Positions 2,853 through 10,825 of a DNA stretch of 64,000 nt are shown piece after piece (within the stretch, counting starts at the first letter, position 1; every line of letters begins with the position of its first letter). The stretch spans positions 620,001 to 684,000 of the forward strand of contig NZ_JAIUZR010000004.1 of NCBI RefSeq assembly GCF_020171465.1, in the 5' to 3' direction. This DNA comes from Lutimonas saemankumensis. GTDB taxonomy: Bacteria; Bacteroidota; Bacteroidia; Flavobacteriales; Flavobacteriaceae. The notes under the pieces were generated by a model. That model worked only from the letters and a program-made list of their open reading frames with translations, was not told where the DNA came from and made no database searches. The translations under genes were made by a program, and so were the position numbers.

Positions 2853-2872
2853 TCGCAGTATTTTAAGTTATT

Positions 2873-2903
2873 CAAAAGTAACACTATTTAAATGTTAAGC
2901 AAA
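2873..2903 (-). promoter_or_regulatory. Bacteroidota-type promoter for tamL
   Basis: Read on the minus strand this gives TTTG (2900-2903), a 19-bp spacer, and TACTTTTG (2873-2880), fitting the -33 TTTG / -7 TAnnTTTG pattern. The predicted transcript starts about 15 nt before the TTG start of tamL, which supports that start codon. The -33 element overlaps the first codons of the divergent methyltransferase gene. Confidence 0.6.
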
Positions 2904-3614
2904 AATCAAATTAAGTTTATCAGAAGTTTGAAGAAAAAAAAATTTCGTCAGGCTGAAAAGCTGTTTTTGGCGGAAGGCATCAAAGTAGTTGAAGAGTTGT
3001 TGGCTTCTGCTTTTGAGCTTCATAGACTTTATGCAACTTCCTCATATAAAAACCCCTTTAAAATAAAGGACCTCACTATTATTGAGGAAAAAGAGCTTGC
3101 AATGATCAGCGATTTTACAAATCCCAACCAGGTTTTTGGAATATTCAAAATTCCTTCTGAAAAAGATCTTACAAGAGAGGGTCTGACCTTGGTGCTTGAC
3201 GGGGTAAATGACCCGGGAAACCTGGGAACAATTATCAGGTTATGCGACTGGTTTGGGGTCAGGCAGATTGTTTGCTCTGAAAATACGGTGGATTGTTACA
3301 ATCAAAAGGTTGTCCAGGCCAGTATGGGATCTTTGACAAGAGTATCCGTCAGTTACCTGGATCTGGCTGAATACCTCAGATTGGAAACACGCATGATCTA
3401 TGGCACTTTACTTGACGGAGAAAATATTTACCAGCTAACTCCGGAAGAAAATGCCGTTCTTATTTTAGGCAACGAGGCAAATGGGATCTCAGAAGAGGTA
3501 AAAAGAATGATCCGGCAAAAACTAACTATCCCGCAGTTTGGTGAAACTCAAAAAACAGAAAGCCTCAACGTAGCCATGGCTGCAGCCATATTCCTAAGCG
3601 AATTCAGAAGATGA
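2892..3614 (+). CDS. TrmH/SpoU-family RNA 2'-O-ribose methyltransferase
   Basis: A 240-residue SPOUT enzyme with the three SpoU motifs: motif 1 at 101-120 (VLDGVNDPGNLGTIIR), motif 2 at 190-200 (LILGNEANGIS) and motif 3 at 220-238 (ESLNVAMAAAIFLSE). A short N-terminal substrate-binding domain (about 1-95) precedes them, as in RlmB/TsnR-like enzymes. The family uses SAM, bound in a trefoil knot, to methylate ribose in rRNA or tRNA. Which nucleotide is modified cannot be read from sequence. The gene ends one base before the convergent kdsA stop. Confidence 0.88.
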   Translation: MLSKNQIKFIRSLKKKKFRQAEKLFLAEGIKVVEELLASAFELHRLYATSSYKNPFKIKDLTIIEEKELAMISDFTNPNQVFGIFKIPSEKDLTREGLTLVLDGVNDPGNLGTIIRLCDWFGVRQIVCSENTVDCYNQKVVQASMGSLTRVSVSYLDLAEYLRLETRMIYGTLLDGENIYQLTPEENAVLILGNEANGISEEVKRMIRQKLTIPQFGETQKTESLNVAMAAAIFLSEFRR

Positions 3615-5690: not shown

Positions 5691-6584
5691 CTAATTGGTT
5701 AAACTTTGGAATAGTGATTCTAAATTTGTTGATTTCTGATTTAGCTCCAAGGTTCGTAATCTGTTCTCAACTGCAAAATCAAATACATTTGCCCTCATAT
5801 CTTCATCTGTTTCAAAACTCAGGTTCCAAATATTTCCTTCGGGATTTGAACATTCTATTAAATGAGCAAGTTTTCTGATCTTAGCTTCCTCAACTTTCTT
5901 GTCAAACTCAACCAGTATGGTCTGGCATTGCCCGCTTAACAGGTTTTCAAGCTCTTCGTCCGCTACAATATCTCCTTTGTTTATAATAATCACTCGATCG
6001 CACATGGCTTCTACTTCCTGCATGATATGAGTTGACAACAGGATGGTTTTTGACTTTCCAATTTCTTTGATCAGATTTCTTATGTCTCTTAATTGATTTG
6101 GGTCTAGTCCGGTTGTGGGTTCGTCAAGAATTAAAACTTCAGGATCATGGAGTAAAGCAGCTGCCAATCCCACTCGTTGTCTATATCCTTTTGATAACTG
6201 TCCGATTTTTTTTTCTCCTATATCAACCAAACCTACCTTATCAATGACTTCTTCTATTCTTTTATTTCCTATACGGTGTATCTCAGCATGAAATTTAAGG
6301 TATTCTTTTACATAAAAATCAAGATACAAAGGGTTGTGTTCAGGAAGATAGCCCACTGATTTCTTAACTTCAAGGCTTTGATCTTTAGTCCTGAACCCAT
6401 TGACCAGAACAGTTCCCTTATTTGGCTCAACATAGGTTGTGATAATTTTCATCATAGTTGATTTTCCCGCCCCGTTTGGCCCCAGGAAACCAACTATTTC
6501 TCCTGTACTAATTTGAAAACTTACAGAATTCAGAGCCGTTTGGGATCCATACTGTTTTACTACGGAATCAACTTCGATTGACAT
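5691..6584 (-). CDS. gldA: Gliding-associated ABC transporter ATPase GldA
   Basis: A 297-residue ABC ATPase with Walker A GPNGAGKS (35-42), signature LSKGYRQR (130-137), Walker B LILDEP (151-156) and H-loop STH (184-186). Sequence such as LPEHNPLYLDFYVKEYL after the Q-loop and the roughly 90-residue C-terminal extension match GldA of gliding Bacteroidota. GldA works with membrane proteins GldF and GldG, which are not in this window; gldA is also found apart from gldFG in other flavobacteria. Its exact role in gliding is unsettled, since some gliding species lack it. Divergent from the aromatic operon, with a 320-bp gap. Confidence 0.88.
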   Translation of the reverse strand: MSIEVDSVVKQYGSQTALNSVSFQISTGEIVGFLGPNGAGKSTMMKIITTYVEPNKGTVLVNGFRTKDQSLEVKKSVGYLPEHNPLYLDFYVKEYLKFHAEIHRIGNKRIEEVIDKVGLVDIGEKKIGQLSKGYRQRVGLAAALLHDPEVLILDEPTTGLDPNQLRDIRNLIKEIGKSKTILLSTHIMQEVEAMCDRVIIINKGDIVADEELENLLSGQCQTILVEFDKKVEEAKIRKLAHLIECSNPEGNIWNLSFETDEDMRANVFDFAVENRLRTLELNQKSTNLESLFQSLTN

Positions 6585-6710
6585 TTAAAATTACTTAAAT
6601 AACGGGGCAAAGTAAATAAAATTTATCTTAATTATTCATGATAAGGATCATTTCTTAACCCAAATCCCACCAATATATTTGAATTATCGTTAATCTTTTT
6701 TAAAAAACTC

Positions 6711-6740
6711 TTGTAATTGACAAATTAATTCATAGATTTG
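6711..6740 (+). promoter_or_regulatory. Probable promoter of the pheA operon
   Basis: TTG at 6711-6713, 19-bp spacer, TAGATTTG at 6733-6740, fitting the Bacteroidota -33/-7 pattern. A second -7 match, TAATTTTG, lies at 6746-6753 with poorer upstream spacing. Transcription from either would produce a leader of about 150 nt carrying the hairpins at 6822-6887. The rest of the 6585-6904 gap shows only AT-rich sequence. Confidence 0.55.
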
Positions 6741-6821
6741 CTGACTAATTTTGATTTTAATGACAATATCTGTACAAATATTAAACTGGTTTTACTTTTA
6801 TTTTTTTACAAAATAAAGGCT

Positions 6822-6887
6822 GAGACTTTTGATGTATAGATCGTTTATAATAACATATTAAGTCTCGTTTTCGAGGCTTTTTTTTTT
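6822..6887 (+). promoter_or_regulatory. Transcription attenuator in the leader of the aromatic amino acid operon
   Basis: An intrinsic terminator hairpin, AGTCTCG (6861-6867), loop TTTT, CGAGGCT (6872-6878, one G-U pair), followed by ten T residues (6878-6887), lies upstream of pheA and downstream of its promoter. No plus-strand gene ends nearby (gldA is divergent), so it can only act on the operon itself. An upstream segment GAGACTT (6822-6828) is exactly complementary to AAGTCTC (6860-6866), the 5' arm of the terminator, giving a mutually exclusive hairpin, with a further 4-bp pairing ATGT/ACAT inside it. This is the architecture of an attenuator. The sensor (ribosome, protein or other) is not shown by the sequence. 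Confidence 0.7.
6832..6861 (+). CDS. Candidate leader peptide with Tyr and Phe codons
   Basis: A nine-codon ORF, ATG at 6832 to TAA at 6859-6861, would encode MYRSFIITY, three aromatic residues in nine. Its stop codon overlaps the 5' arm of the terminator hairpin, so a ribosome paused at the last Tyr codon (6856-6858) or at the stop would cover that arm and favour read-through, while release would let the terminator fold. No Shine-Dalgarno sequence precedes it, which is usual for Bacteroidota. TAT and TTT codons are common in AT-rich sequence, so chance is a real alternative. Confidence 0.35.
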   Translation: MYRSFIITY

Positions 6888-6895
6888 ATGATCAG

Positions 6896-6900
6896 GGAGG
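6896..6900 (+). promoter_or_regulatory. Strong Shine-Dalgarno sequence before pheA
   Basis: GGAGG (within AGGGAGG) stands 4 nt before the pheA ATG. Bacteroidota genes mostly lack such sites, and few genes in this window have one, so it is notable. A six-codon ORF from ATG 6888 ends at TGA 6906-6908, overlapping the pheA start as ATGA; whether it is translated is unknown. Confidence 0.5.
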
Positions 6901-6904
6901 AACA

Positions 6905-7744
6905 ATGAAAATAGCAATTCAAGGAATAAAGGGTTCATTTCATCATATCGTTGCCAATAAGTATTTTGGTAATGATATCGACCTCGTGGAATGCATGTCT
7001 TTTACTGAGATCCCTCCATTGCTTGAAAATGATGAGGTGGATAGTGCTGTTATGGCCATAGAAAACTCAATCGCCGGGGCAATTCTTCCAAATTACGCCT
7101 TGATTGATGAATACAATTTAAGCATCGAGGGAGAATATTTTACCAATATTCATCATCATTTAATGGCATTGGATGGCCAGGAACTGGAAGATATCAAAGA
7201 GGTTTGGTCTCATCCTATGGCCTTGTTGCAATGCAGAAAGTTTTTTCGTGAACGTCCTGAAATAAAATTGATCGAGGAAAAGGATACAGCAGAAGTTGCA
7301 AGAAGGATCCAGAAAGAAAACATTAAAGGTGTTGGGGCCATTGCCAGTAAATTGGCAGCTGACATGTACGGACTTAAGATTGTGGCTGATGACATTCAGA
7401 CAATAAAGAATAATTCAACACGGTTTTTCATCTTGAAAAAGAACAATGACAGTCCGTATCATCCCAGTAAACTGGGTGAAGTAAAAGATAAAGCCTCCCT
7501 AAAATTCGTAACAAAACACGATGCCGGAAGCCTGGCTGAAATTTTGGATATTTTTGGGAAGCACGATTTGAACCTTACAAAGATTCAATCATTACCAATC
7601 ATTGAGAAACCTTGGAATTATGCCTTTTTTATCGATCTTGTTATTGATGATTTCGTGCTTTATAAAAACGCACTTCATCTTATTTCAAAAAAAGTTACCC
7701 ATTTAAAAATTCTTGGGGAATACCATCAAAATAATGCCGTATGA
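6905..7744 (+). CDS. pheA: Prephenate dehydratase
   Basis: A 279-residue monofunctional enzyme converting prephenate to phenylpyruvate, the committed step to phenylalanine. The catalytic domain (about 1-180) carries AIENSIAGAI (51-60) and the NNSTRFFIL segment (169-177) with the catalytic Thr-Arg-Phe. A C-terminal ACT domain (about 196-272) is the usual site of feedback by phenylalanine. The family ESRP motif reads IQSLP here (227-231), so ligand binding may differ. It is the first gene of the aromatic operon, behind the attenuator, and its TGA overlaps the next ATG (ATGA), suggesting coupled translation. Confidence 0.95.
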   Translation: MKIAIQGIKGSFHHIVANKYFGNDIDLVECMSFTEIPPLLENDEVDSAVMAIENSIAGAILPNYALIDEYNLSIEGEYFTNIHHHLMALDGQELEDIKEVWSHPMALLQCRKFFRERPEIKLIEEKDTAEVARRIQKENIKGVGAIASKLAADMYGLKIVADDIQTIKNNSTRFFILKKNNDSPYHPSKLGEVKDKASLKFVTKHDAGSLAEILDIFGKHDLNLTKIQSLPIIEKPWNYAFFIDLVIDDFVLYKNALHLISKKVTHLKILGEYHQNNAV

Positions 7745-8889
7745 TACCTGTTGCAAATAGACTTAATGACGTAAAAGAGTATTACTTCTCCATCAAATTG
7801 AAAGAAGTCAGGTCACTTATCGAACAAGGCAAACCTATTATTAATTTAGGAATAGGAAGTCCTGATCTTTCCCCTCCGGAGTCAGTAACCAGGGCTCTTT
7901 ATGAAGCCGACATTCATGGTTACCAGAGCTATCAGGGCCTTCCAGAACTCAGAAAAGCTATGTCTGATTTTTATAGGAAATATTATGATGTTGATTTAAA
8001 ATTTGATGCTGAAGTTTTACCCTTGATGGGATCAAAAGAGGGCATCATGCACATTTCTATGGCTTTTCTCAATAAAGGTGATCACGTTCTTATTCCTGAT
8101 CCTGGCTATCCTACATATGCTTCGGTAAGCAAATTGATTGAGACTGTGCCCGTAAAGTACAAACTGGCAGAAAAGAATAACTGGTGGCCTGATTTAGAAG
8201 CTCTCGAAGAACTCGACTTAAGCAAGGTAAAGATCATGTGGGTTAATTATCCTCATATGCCAACCGGGAGTAATGGAAACAAAGACTTGTTTGAAGCTTT
8301 GATTGAGTTTGGAAAAAAACACAGTATTTTAATCGTCAACGATAACCCTTATAGTTTTATCTTAAATGATGACCCAAGAAGTATCCTTTCGGTTAAAGGT
8401 GCAAAAGATGTTGCCATTGAACTGAATTCGTTAAGTAAAACATTCAACATGGCTGGCTGGAGAGTTGGAATGGTAGTGGGCCAGAAAACTTTTTTGGATT
8501 CTATTTTAAAAGTAAAAAGCAACATGGACTCTGGCATGTATTTCGGGATTCAAAAAGGGGCTATTGCCGCGCTCAATATTTCTCGAGACTGGTTTTCAGA
8601 AATGAATGAAGTCTATAAGAAAAGAAGACAGGTTATCTGGGAAATCTGCGATCTTTTAGGTTGTACCTATGACAAAGATAGCTCCGGTCTTTTTGTTTGG
8701 GCCAGAATTCCTGAAAATAGAACCTCAGAAGAATTAACCGATCAAATCTTATACAAGCATGACGTTTTTGTTACTCCGGGAACTGTTTTTGGAGAACAGG
8801 GCCAAGGCTACATTCGATTTTCTCTATGCCTTTCTGAAGACAAGATCAGAGAAGTCTTATCTCGTTTAACCAAATTTGAAAAGCTATGA
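7741..8889 (+). CDS. PLP-dependent class I/II aminotransferase of the aromatic operon
   Basis: A 382-residue fold-type I aminotransferase. The PLP lysine is K233 in NSLSKTFNMAGWR; the Asp pairing with the pyridine nitrogen is in VNDNPYS (D201); the cofactor/substrate loop reads YPHMPTG (170-176) where most relatives have NPTG preceded by Asn. A GYIRFSL segment near the end supplies the carboxylate-binding Arg. Between pheA and tyrA, the natural job is transamination of phenylpyruvate and 4-hydroxyphenylpyruvate (or of prephenate to arogenate). Substrate choice is inferred from position alone. Overlaps both neighbours by 4 bp. Confidence 0.87.
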   Translation: MIPVANRLNDVKEYYFSIKLKEVRSLIEQGKPIINLGIGSPDLSPPESVTRALYEADIHGYQSYQGLPELRKAMSDFYRKYYDVDLKFDAEVLPLMGSKEGIMHISMAFLNKGDHVLIPDPGYPTYASVSKLIETVPVKYKLAEKNNWWPDLEALEELDLSKVKIMWVNYPHMPTGSNGNKDLFEALIEFGKKHSILIVNDNPYSFILNDDPRSILSVKGAKDVAIELNSLSKTFNMAGWRVGMVVGQKTFLDSILKVKSNMDSGMYFGIQKGAIAALNISRDWFSEMNEVYKKRRQVIWEICDLLGCTYDKDSSGLFVWARIPENRTSEELTDQILYKHDVFVTPGTVFGEQGQGYIRFSLCLSEDKIREVLSRLTKFEKL

Positions 8890-9743
8890 AAAAAGTCGCT
8901 GTCATTGGTTTAGGTCTTATTGGCGGTTCGCTTGCCCTCGAATTGAAGAAAACAACCTGGGCCACAATCTATGGTATTGATAAGAATAAGGATCATATCA
9001 GGAAGGCTCTTGAATTAGGCATAATATTTGAAGAAATTGCTTTTGACAAGATTCATGAAATGGATGTTGTCATTATAGCGGTACCCGTAAATGTTATTCC
9101 CGAAATAGCCGTAAAAGTTCTTGATCTTATTAATGAAAATGCCCTTGTTTTTGATGTTGGTTCCACAAAAGCCAAGGTATGCGAATCAGTTAGAATGCAT
9201 CCCAACAGGAAGAACTTTGTTGCACTGCATCCGATAGCCGGTACAGAGTTTTCAGGTCCTCAGGCGGCCATTTATGACCTATTTACCGACAAAGTCAATA
9301 TTATATGTGAAAAGGAATTAAGCAGTCGGGAAAAGATAGAACAAACACGGGACCTTTTCGAAAAACTCAAAATGAAAAATGTCTTTATGGAATCTGCCGT
9401 TCAGCACGATATTCATATCGCATATGTTTCACACCTATCTCACATCAGCTCTTTTATGCTGGGAAAAACAGTACTTGAAATTGAAAAAGACGAAAAAAAC
9501 ATTTTTAACATGGCCGGAAGTGGTTTTGCTTCAACGGTAAGACTGGCCAAAAGTAACCCTGAAACATGGACCCCCATATTTATGCAAAACAGGGATAACT
9601 TGCTTAAATCACTTGAAGAATACATAAAGAACTTAAATAAATTTAAAGATATTTTAACTAGAAAATCAGCCGAAGACGTTTTAAAAATCATGGAAGATAC
9701 GAATAGAATCAAAGACGTATTGGCGGGAATTAAACAACAATGA
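8886..9743 (+). CDS. tyrA: Prephenate dehydrogenase
   Basis: A 285-residue NAD(P)-dependent enzyme that oxidatively decarboxylates prephenate to 4-hydroxyphenylpyruvate for tyrosine. It shows the N-terminal Rossmann motif VIGLGLIGGSLA (6-17), VVIIAVP (61-67), DVGSTKA (90-96), HPIAGTEFSGP (115-125) and an HDIHIAYVSHLSH helix (174-186). There is no C-terminal ACT domain, and the length fits the short monofunctional class. The start overlaps the aminotransferase stop as ATGA and the stop overlaps the next start, so the whole pathway branch is tightly coupled. Confidence 0.93.
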   Translation: MKKVAVIGLGLIGGSLALELKKTTWATIYGIDKNKDHIRKALELGIIFEEIAFDKIHEMDVVIIAVPVNVIPEIAVKVLDLINENALVFDVGSTKAKVCESVRMHPNRKNFVALHPIAGTEFSGPQAAIYDLFTDKVNIICEKELSSREKIEQTRDLFEKLKMKNVFMESAVQHDIHIAYVSHLSHISSFMLGKTVLEIEKDEKNIFNMAGSGFASTVRLAKSNPETWTPIFMQNRDNLLKSLEEYIKNLNKFKDILTRKSAEDVLKIMEDTNRIKDVLAGIKQQ

Positions 9744-10825
9744 CAATGGAAAATAAAAATTTTAGAACATGGTTGGATGAAATGGAATTGTCTCATCCGC
9801 TGGTAATTGCCGGTCCATGTAGTGCCGAAAGTGAAGAACAAGTGCTTGAAATTGCACACGAGTTAAAAGATACCGATGCCACCGTATTCAGAGCTGGTGT
9901 TTGGAAACCAAGAACCCGGCCTGGATCATTTGAAGGTAACGGTGCTGTTGCTCTTCCATGGCTAAAAAAGGTAAAAGAACAAACTGGATTGATGACTGCG
10001 GTAGAAATTGCAAACGCACAACATGCAAAACTTGCTTTGGAATTTGATATTGATGTATTATGGATCGGTGCCCGTACAACGGTTAATCCGTTTGCAGTTC
10101 AGGAGATTGCAGATGCAATCGCCAACACAGATAAAATAGTGCTTGTTAAGAATCCTATAAACCCCGATCTTGCCTTATGGATAGGCGCCATCGAAAGATT
10201 GCATAAAAAAGGAGTTAAAAACCTTGGGGCGATTCACAGAGGATTTTCCTCATTTAGAAAATCGAATTACAGAAATATCCCAAGCTGGCAAATTCCGATT
10301 GACCTTAAAAGCAAGTATCCAACCTTACCGATAATCAATGATCCGTCTCATATCTGTGGCAACAGAGAAGGTATTTTCGATGTGTCCCAAACAGCTCTCG
10401 ACCTAAAAATGGATGGACTGATCATTGAGACACATTGCCATCCTGATGACGCATGGAGTGACGCTATGCAACAGATTACGCCTTCTCGACTGGTAGAAAT
10501 TATGGAGGATCTCAAGGTAAGAAAACCCAGGTTTGAGAGAGAAGAGTCGCTTTCAAAATTAAACGCCCTGAGAAGTGAAATAAATGCAAAAGATGAACAG
10601 TTGCTGGAAACCCTATCGGAAAGAATGCAAATTGTTGAGAATATTGGAAAGGCCAAAAAAGAAAGCAATGTTGCGGTACTTCAAAACACCAGATGGAATG
10701 AAATTCTGGAAAAGGTAGTGGACCAGGGGAAAAACCAAGGCCTTTCTAAAATATTTATCGAGAGAATTTTCAAAGCTATCCATCAGGAATCCATTGCCCA
10801 TCAGGAAAAAATTATTAACGGCTAA
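9740..10825 (+). CDS. Bifunctional DAHP synthase / chorismate mutase (type II, C-terminal)
   Basis: A 361-residue fusion. Residues about 15-260 are the beta-type DAHP synthase related to KdsA: GPCSAESEEQ (25-34), FRAGVWKPRTRPGSFEG, RTTVNPFAVQEIAD, NDPSHICGNR and IETHCHPDDAWSDA. Residues about 268-355 are an AroQ chorismate mutase helix bundle (LNALRSEINAKDEQLLETLSERM). It thus catalyses the first shikimate step (PEP + erythrose 4-phosphate) and the chorismate to prephenate step feeding pheA and tyrA. The mutase is C-terminal, the reverse of the Bacillus AroQ-AroA order; this order is usual in Bacteroidota. A second ATG at 9746 is a possible alternative start. Confidence 0.93.
   Translation: MTMENKNFRTWLDEMELSHPLVIAGPCSAESEEQVLEIAHELKDTDATVFRAGVWKPRTRPGSFEGNGAVALPWLKKVKEQTGLMTAVEIANAQHAKLALEFDIDVLWIGARTTVNPFAVQEIADAIANTDKIVLVKNPINPDLALWIGAIERLHKKGVKNLGAIHRGFSSFRKSNYRNIPSWQIPIDLKSKYPTLPIINDPSHICGNREGIFDVSQTALDLKMDGLIIETHCHPDDAWSDAMQQITPSRLVEIMEDLKVRKPRFEREESLSKLNALRSEINAKDEQLLETLSERMQIVENIGKAKKESNVAVLQNTRWNEILEKVVDQGKNQGLSKIFIERIFKAIHQESIAHQEKIING

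Follow-up and report, generated by a model that had tools for sequence, protein, structure and literature searches.

The stretch of Lutimonas saemankumensis DNA that we analyzed, 64,000 nucleotides long and hereafter called the window, carries on its plus strand an operon that begins with pheA, the gene of prephenate dehydratase (6905..7744; PF00800). It continues with a class I/II aminotransferase (7741..8889; PF00155), tyrA for prephenate dehydrogenase (8886..9743; NF006307, matched above its cut-off) and a fusion of DAHP synthase and chorismate mutase (9740..10825; PF00793 and PF01817). The four genes together represent the Phe/Tyr pathway and the common first step, and in all 20 regions fetched for this check a DAHP synthase homologue was found 3' of pheA and in the same orientation. 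Directly 5' of pheA, the plus strand contains no other gene. As the gene upstream of the pheA leader, gldA (5691-6584), lies on the minus strand, the terminator at 6860-6887 has no plus-strand gene just upstream to stop, and the original prediction was right on this point.

The region before pheA begins with an exact match to the Bacteroidota type of promoter, TTG-N19-TAGATTTG (TAnnTTTG; 6711..6740, plus strand), whose end is 19 nt from the ATG of a short open reading frame (ORF). Transcription would start a few nucleotides 3' of this match, shortly after 6740. The TAnnTTTG-type consensus comes from passages of PMC7366714, according to which the -33 part of the promoter was not found in F. johnsoniae RNA-seq. 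The short ORF, MTISVQILNWFYFYFFTK, has 18 codons and a TAA (6760..6816, plus strand) and is conserved across relatives as a Phe/Tyr-rich ORF. It contains the uninterrupted series TTT TAC TTT TAT TTT TTT (Phe Tyr Phe Tyr Phe Phe; 6790..6807), which we consider the control codons, with TGG (Trp) at 6787-6789 directly 5' of them. The stop codon at 6814-6816 is 4 nt 5' of the first of three plus-strand segments that can pair in alternative ways: segment 2, TGAGACTT (6821..6828), the 5' arm of an antiterminator; segment 3, AAGTCTCG (6860..6867), which is common to the antiterminator (with 6821-6828) and the terminator (with 6872-6879); and segment 4, CGAGGCTT (6872..6879), the 3' arm of the terminator. 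Segments 3 and 4 enclose a TTTT loop, and the intrinsic terminator ends in a run of ten T (6878..6887), two of them inside the 3' arm. We thus found the terminator hairpin and its ten T where they had been predicted, and GAGACTT at 6822-6828 is, as claimed, exactly complementary to AAGTCTC at 6860-6866. The free energies computed for the window are -10.8 kcal/mol for the 2:3 pairing vs -9.4 kcal/mol for 3:4, making the antiterminator slightly more stable. A further hairpin, 1:2 (MFE -10.9 kcal/mol), is predicted in the window fold between segment 1 (6788..6804, plus strand), which consists mainly of the control codons, and a 3' arm that comprises 6810-6819 and 6821-6827.

We compared this leader with the upstream regions of other pheA genes. 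The loci came from a contig search (130 confirmed, of which the best 80 were kept), from whole genomes and from a draw across the phylum with 172 matching genomes, of which 30 loci and 20 hand-picked regions were taken. Of the 157 loci, 156 were usable after exclusion of L027 (partial pheA), 141 were unique after removal of 15 duplicates, and 140 had enough upstream sequence (L004 being too short). Among the best 80 of 130 pheA relatives, the closest named species was Lutimonas halocynthiae, with 87% identity in the best segment. We required an ORF that starts with ATG, is 8-60 codons long and has five or more Phe or Tyr codons in a stretch of eight (six or more for a GTG start), and identified a leader ORF in 126 of the 140 usable unique regions, 121 with ATG and five (L011, L012, L014, L021 and L148) where the Phe/Tyr-rich ORF has GTG and no ATG start. 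An ATG leader ORF within the 160 nt before segment 3 was present in 121/126 leaders, compared with 1.7 expected from dinucleotide shuffles, and the stricter pattern of at least seven Phe/Tyr in eight codons in 80/126, compared with 0.03 expected from the same type of shuffles; the rows are related, and the locus counts are therefore not independent. The ORFs have a median length of 24 codons and a Phe plus Tyr content of 37% across the 126 leaders, and show A mostly at codon position 2 and C mostly at position 3, a pattern that is descriptive as the windows had been selected for Phe/Tyr. Judging by the family labels of the genomes, leaders of this form occur in at least 14 families. A TTG-N17-21-TAnnTTTG promoter match within 90 nt 5' of the leader ORF was found in 67/122 leaders, vs 0.54 expected from mononucleotide shuffles (four of the 126 were left out as having less than 60 nt upstream).

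By these criteria, 14 of the 140 loci had no leader ORF: L023, L028, L069, L083, L088, L095, L102, L125, L126, L128 and L154-L157. In some of them, pheA seems by eye to lie directly 3' of another gene. The L088 contig is titled as a Gammaproteobacteria metagenome-assembled genome, but its pheA, among the best 80 of 130, is 55% identical to the flavobacterial pheA of the window; the contig is possibly mis-binned.

The original prediction of mutually exclusive hairpins was borne out by an alignment of 52 of the 126 leaders, hand-chosen for spread, in which both the 2:3 and the 3:4 helix covary. The 2:3 pairing was kept in 88.5% and the 3:4 pairing in 99.8% of the alignment cells, double changes were seen at six of eight pairs in each helix, and the covariation scores of 0.338 (2:3) and 0.348 (3:4) were reached by none of 500 shuffles. 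When the columns were slid by one as a control, pairing fell to 42-61%. Out of five measures, the count of further pair types was matched by 105 and 63 of the 500 shuffles and therefore adds little. The segments 2, 3 and 4 change in concert, giving triples and covariation across three strands. Segment 2, which we defined by its complementarity to segment 3, taking the best match, is diverse and includes GAGACTT, CGGGACC, CAGGACT, GCCGGGGCT, GAGAACTTC and AGGCGGGA; in 86/126 leaders, no more than 2% of the mononucleotide shuffles equalled its pairing. A swap test gave a moderate signal, the leader's own pairing being matched by at most 10% of the regions from other loci in 61/126 cases (median 10.7%). 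Folded by itself as a single strand, 6790-6930 shows no exceptional stability (z -0.68). All 126 leaders have a terminator by a lenient, uncontrolled criterion, and a stricter terminator finder detected one in 83 of the first 94 unique loci. At one locus (L029:99-199, minus strand), the leader ORF is intact and the 5' arm of the terminator reads AATTTTCG, which by eye pairs imperfectly with segment 4, through G-U pairs and a mismatch, and matches segment 2 poorly; this attenuator is possibly decaying.

The weakest part of the predicted 1:2, 2:3 and 3:4 set is the 1:2 hairpin. Seven of the 126 leaders had an odd placement of segment 2, and in 99 of the remaining 119 a stretch of four or more nucleotides of segment 2 could pair upstream, compared with 70.9 expected. 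Column covariation is absent from the 1:1' inner stem; its fold energy was better than that of shuffles (p <=0.05) in 61/119 leaders.

The leader ORF, the codons it contains, its conservation and both of the covarying alternative helices can be read directly from the sequences and their comparison. On these grounds, we consider it highly probable that the pheA-aminotransferase-tyrA-aroF/CM operon is under a classic four-segment, leader-peptide (ribosome-mediated) transcription attenuator. A ribosome would translate the 18-codon leader (6760-6816) and, if the supply of charged Phe-tRNA or Tyr-tRNA is low, stall on FYFYFF (6790-6807). The stalled ribosome would break the 1:2 hairpin and keep segment 2 (6821-6828) free to pair with segment 3 (6860-6867), so that the terminator would be blocked and the operon transcribed. 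With charged tRNAs plentiful, the ribosome would reach the stop codon (6814-6816) and mask segment 2, leaving segment 3 to pair with segment 4 (6872-6879) and transcription to end in the T run. The start of transcription, the translation of the ORF, the stalling, the termination and the response to Phe and Tyr are what we infer from the sequence. The geometry is consistent with this scheme. If the footprint is taken to extend from 15 nt upstream to 11 nt downstream of the A-site codon, a ribosome stalled at the last Phe/Tyr codon would leave at least half of segment 2 free in 116/119 leaders (a fraction of 1.0 in the window), and one resting at the stop codon would mask at least half of it in 84/119 (0.875 in the window). 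In the other 35/119 leaders, less than half of segment 2 would lie under the stop-resting ribosome, and masking there would depend on a ribosome that translates through this segment or is released slowly. In short, a ribosome on a tiny Phe/Tyr-rich gene probably decides between stopping and continuing transcription. The original prediction of an attenuator of the aromatic operon, tied to Phe/Tyr and most likely ribosome-mediated, is thus supported by the leader ORF and the covarying helices.

The sensor had initially been placed elsewhere, in a nine-codon ORF (ATG..TAA, 6832-6861; MYRSFIITY) on which a ribosome stalled at the last Tyr codon would cover the terminator arm. This ORF is real, with codons for Tyr, Phe and Tyr and its end at the arm, and a Tyr-ended ORF at the same place was found in four leaders, those of the window (L001), L002, L003 and L005. 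In the orthologous leaders, the stems are conserved but this mini-ORF is not, its Tyr end being restricted to 4/126. ORFs of at least five codons that end at the arm edge numbered 22, in 21/126 leaders, and none of the other 18 has more than a single Phe or Tyr codon. The ATG of the mini-ORF is directly followed by TAA in L009 and L010. The leader ORF upstream, at 6760-6816, is conserved far better, and we regard sensing by the nine-codon ORF, a lineage-specific ORF in the loop of the 2:3 antiterminator, as very improbable. In the classic trp and phe leaders, the leader-peptide ORF shares sequence with segment 1, and its stop codon immediately precedes segment 2. The leader at 6760-6816 does the same, and with it the proposed non-classic geometry, in which the competing arm would precede the leader ORF unlike in the trp leader, and the model of blocking by covering both fall away. 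The strong Shine-Dalgarno sequence noted before pheA is present (GGGAGGAACA, 5' of the ATG at 6905) but not conserved: the window is the only one of 141 loci to have it, and it is absent even from the 96%-identical L002. We therefore rejected it as a feature of the attenuator. Passages of PMC7366714 describe Bacteroidota as lacking classical Shine-Dalgarno sequences.

Two other explanations dispense with the leader peptide altogether. The attenuator could respond to a tRNA, as in the T-box, to an RNA-binding protein or to a small molecule, and a recurrent ATGT...ACAT-like pairing, seen by eye in the 2:3 loop of many leaders, would suit such a sensor. However, Rfam gave no match to the phe leader, either in the window at gathering scores or in 6650-6950 at E up to 1, and a T-box or known riboswitch was therefore rejected; the start codon and the Phe/Tyr-rich frame are moreover retained in 126/140 loci. 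A sensor other than the ribosome thus appears highly unlikely. The Rfam searches also rejected membership in the families Phe_leader (RF01859; no match in 6650-6950 at E up to 1 nor in L001) and Bacteroid-trp (RF01692; no match in the window or 6650-6950). The terminator could also be constitutive and unregulated, or the region a plain T-rich tract with no switch at all. The leader is AT-rich and T-rich tracts readily yield Phe and Tyr codons: strings of six such codons had 20 hits in the genome, vs 35 for a control with the reversed pattern. The 20 hits represent 18 sites, however, and of the 17 other than the leader, 13 lack an in-frame ATG 5' of the run; four have one (L173, L178, L181 and L187), and wherever the following 70 nt were inspected by eye, they revealed no terminator. 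The Phe/Tyr ORF is also retained in L138, L144 and L153, relatives that are GC-richer by eye, which makes an origin as a by-product of AT-richness less likely. Together with the covariation across three strands, this leaves a region with no switch barely conceivable. By eye, none of the 17 other sites looks like a second phe leader, and no leader was seen before pheS.

Within the four-segment, ribosome-mediated attenuator, the Trp codon of the leader deserves separate consideration. A Trp codon within about eight codons of the start of the Phe/Tyr window was found in 49/126 leaders, compared with 4.2 expected from mononucleotide shuffles; the excess partly reflects inheritance, as the loci are related. 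One may tentatively read this as a pan-aromatic sensor, one widespread switch that gauges Phe, Tyr and Trp, a reading that we consider possible but doubtful. If true, three aromatic amino acids would be sensed for an operon that contains DAHP synthase, their shared first enzyme. In 20 regions hand-picked from the phylum draw, a DAHP synthase gene was downstream in 10/10 loci with the Trp codon and likewise in 10/10 without it. Being found in both groups, the enzyme does not explain the Trp codon, and a link between the two was rejected for lack of contrast.

The genome contains other candidates for leaders of the same kind, all of them read by eye. A his leader, MKRIALHHHHIHTCTQAR (L171:258-314; G000:C3:602957-603013), has HHHH codons and lies before hisG, with a hairpin and T run 3' of the ORF. 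A trp leader, MRNNTIHTWWWSLQNKNL, with WWW (L190, about 2870-3006, minus strand), is located 5' of a gene of the chorismate-binding family that we take to be trpE; it has a terminator and resembles Bacteroid-trp (RF01692), the score of 46 bits being just below the cut-off of 49. An ilv leader, MKQFNLHIVAVIIIGSPGV, with III (L192), lies at most 330 nt before an ORF of the ilvD family and is followed by a terminator. The stretch of the ilv leader also gave a weak match to Rfam Phe_leader (27.3 bits, cut-off 55, E 0.53), which is probably due to chance. A Thr-rich short ORF, MQKIVNLTSSLRCLTTTATFTMNTL, upstream of the aspartokinase-homoserine dehydrogenase-like thrA (L197), has only a short hairpin and is a possible thr leader. 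Counting the leaders of his, trp and ilv with their terminators, the genome seems to control the synthesis of Phe/Tyr, His, Trp and Ile/Val by leader peptides.

The window leader shares with the attenuators of E. coli pheA (pheL) and trp a short ORF with a run of cognate codons, a stop codon adjoining segment 2, the 2:3 and 3:4 pairings along with a predicted 1:2 hairpin, and an intrinsic terminator before the first structural gene. It differs from them in mixing Phe and Tyr codons, in its Bacteroidota promoter and in having no match to RF01859; the mixed codons fit an operon that makes both amino acids and starts the common pathway. RF01692 (Weinberg et al. 2010, PMC2864571), which Rfam describes as a peptide leader RNA for tryptophan in Bacteroidetes, differs in its Trp codons and trp genes, and its model does not match the phe leader. 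In 2010, the authors of PMC2965389 wrote in a passage on such systems that leader-peptide control had, to their knowledge, been shown in Proteobacteria and Actinobacteria only. For F. psychrophilum, passages of PMC9723704 (2021) report clues of leader-peptide attenuation before amino-acid operons as well as a structured 5' element of pheA, present in other Flavobacteriaceae genera and with no Rfam hit. This element is most likely the same as the leader of the window; section 19 of that paper mentions neither a leader peptide nor a switch for it. The earlier remark that ribosome-mediated attenuation is little described in Bacteroidota was thus fair, yet PMC9723704, in the passages cited, and Rfam RF01692 had already noted such leaders. 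The main-text passages of PMC9723704, PMC7366714, PMC2864571, PMC4833913 and PMC2965389 describe no phe leader peptide of Bacteroidota. Given those of PMC9723704 and PMC2965389, the kind of system is known and the element itself has probably been glimpsed; newly added here are the leader peptide with its codons, the covariation of the switch and how widely the switch occurs.

These additions turn a conserved 5' element of flavobacterial pheA, left unexplained in section 19 of PMC9723704, into a concrete and testable switch. As leader-peptide attenuators need tight coupling of ribosome and polymerase, they would be natural reporters of this coupling, and of initiation without a Shine-Dalgarno sequence, in Bacteroidota.
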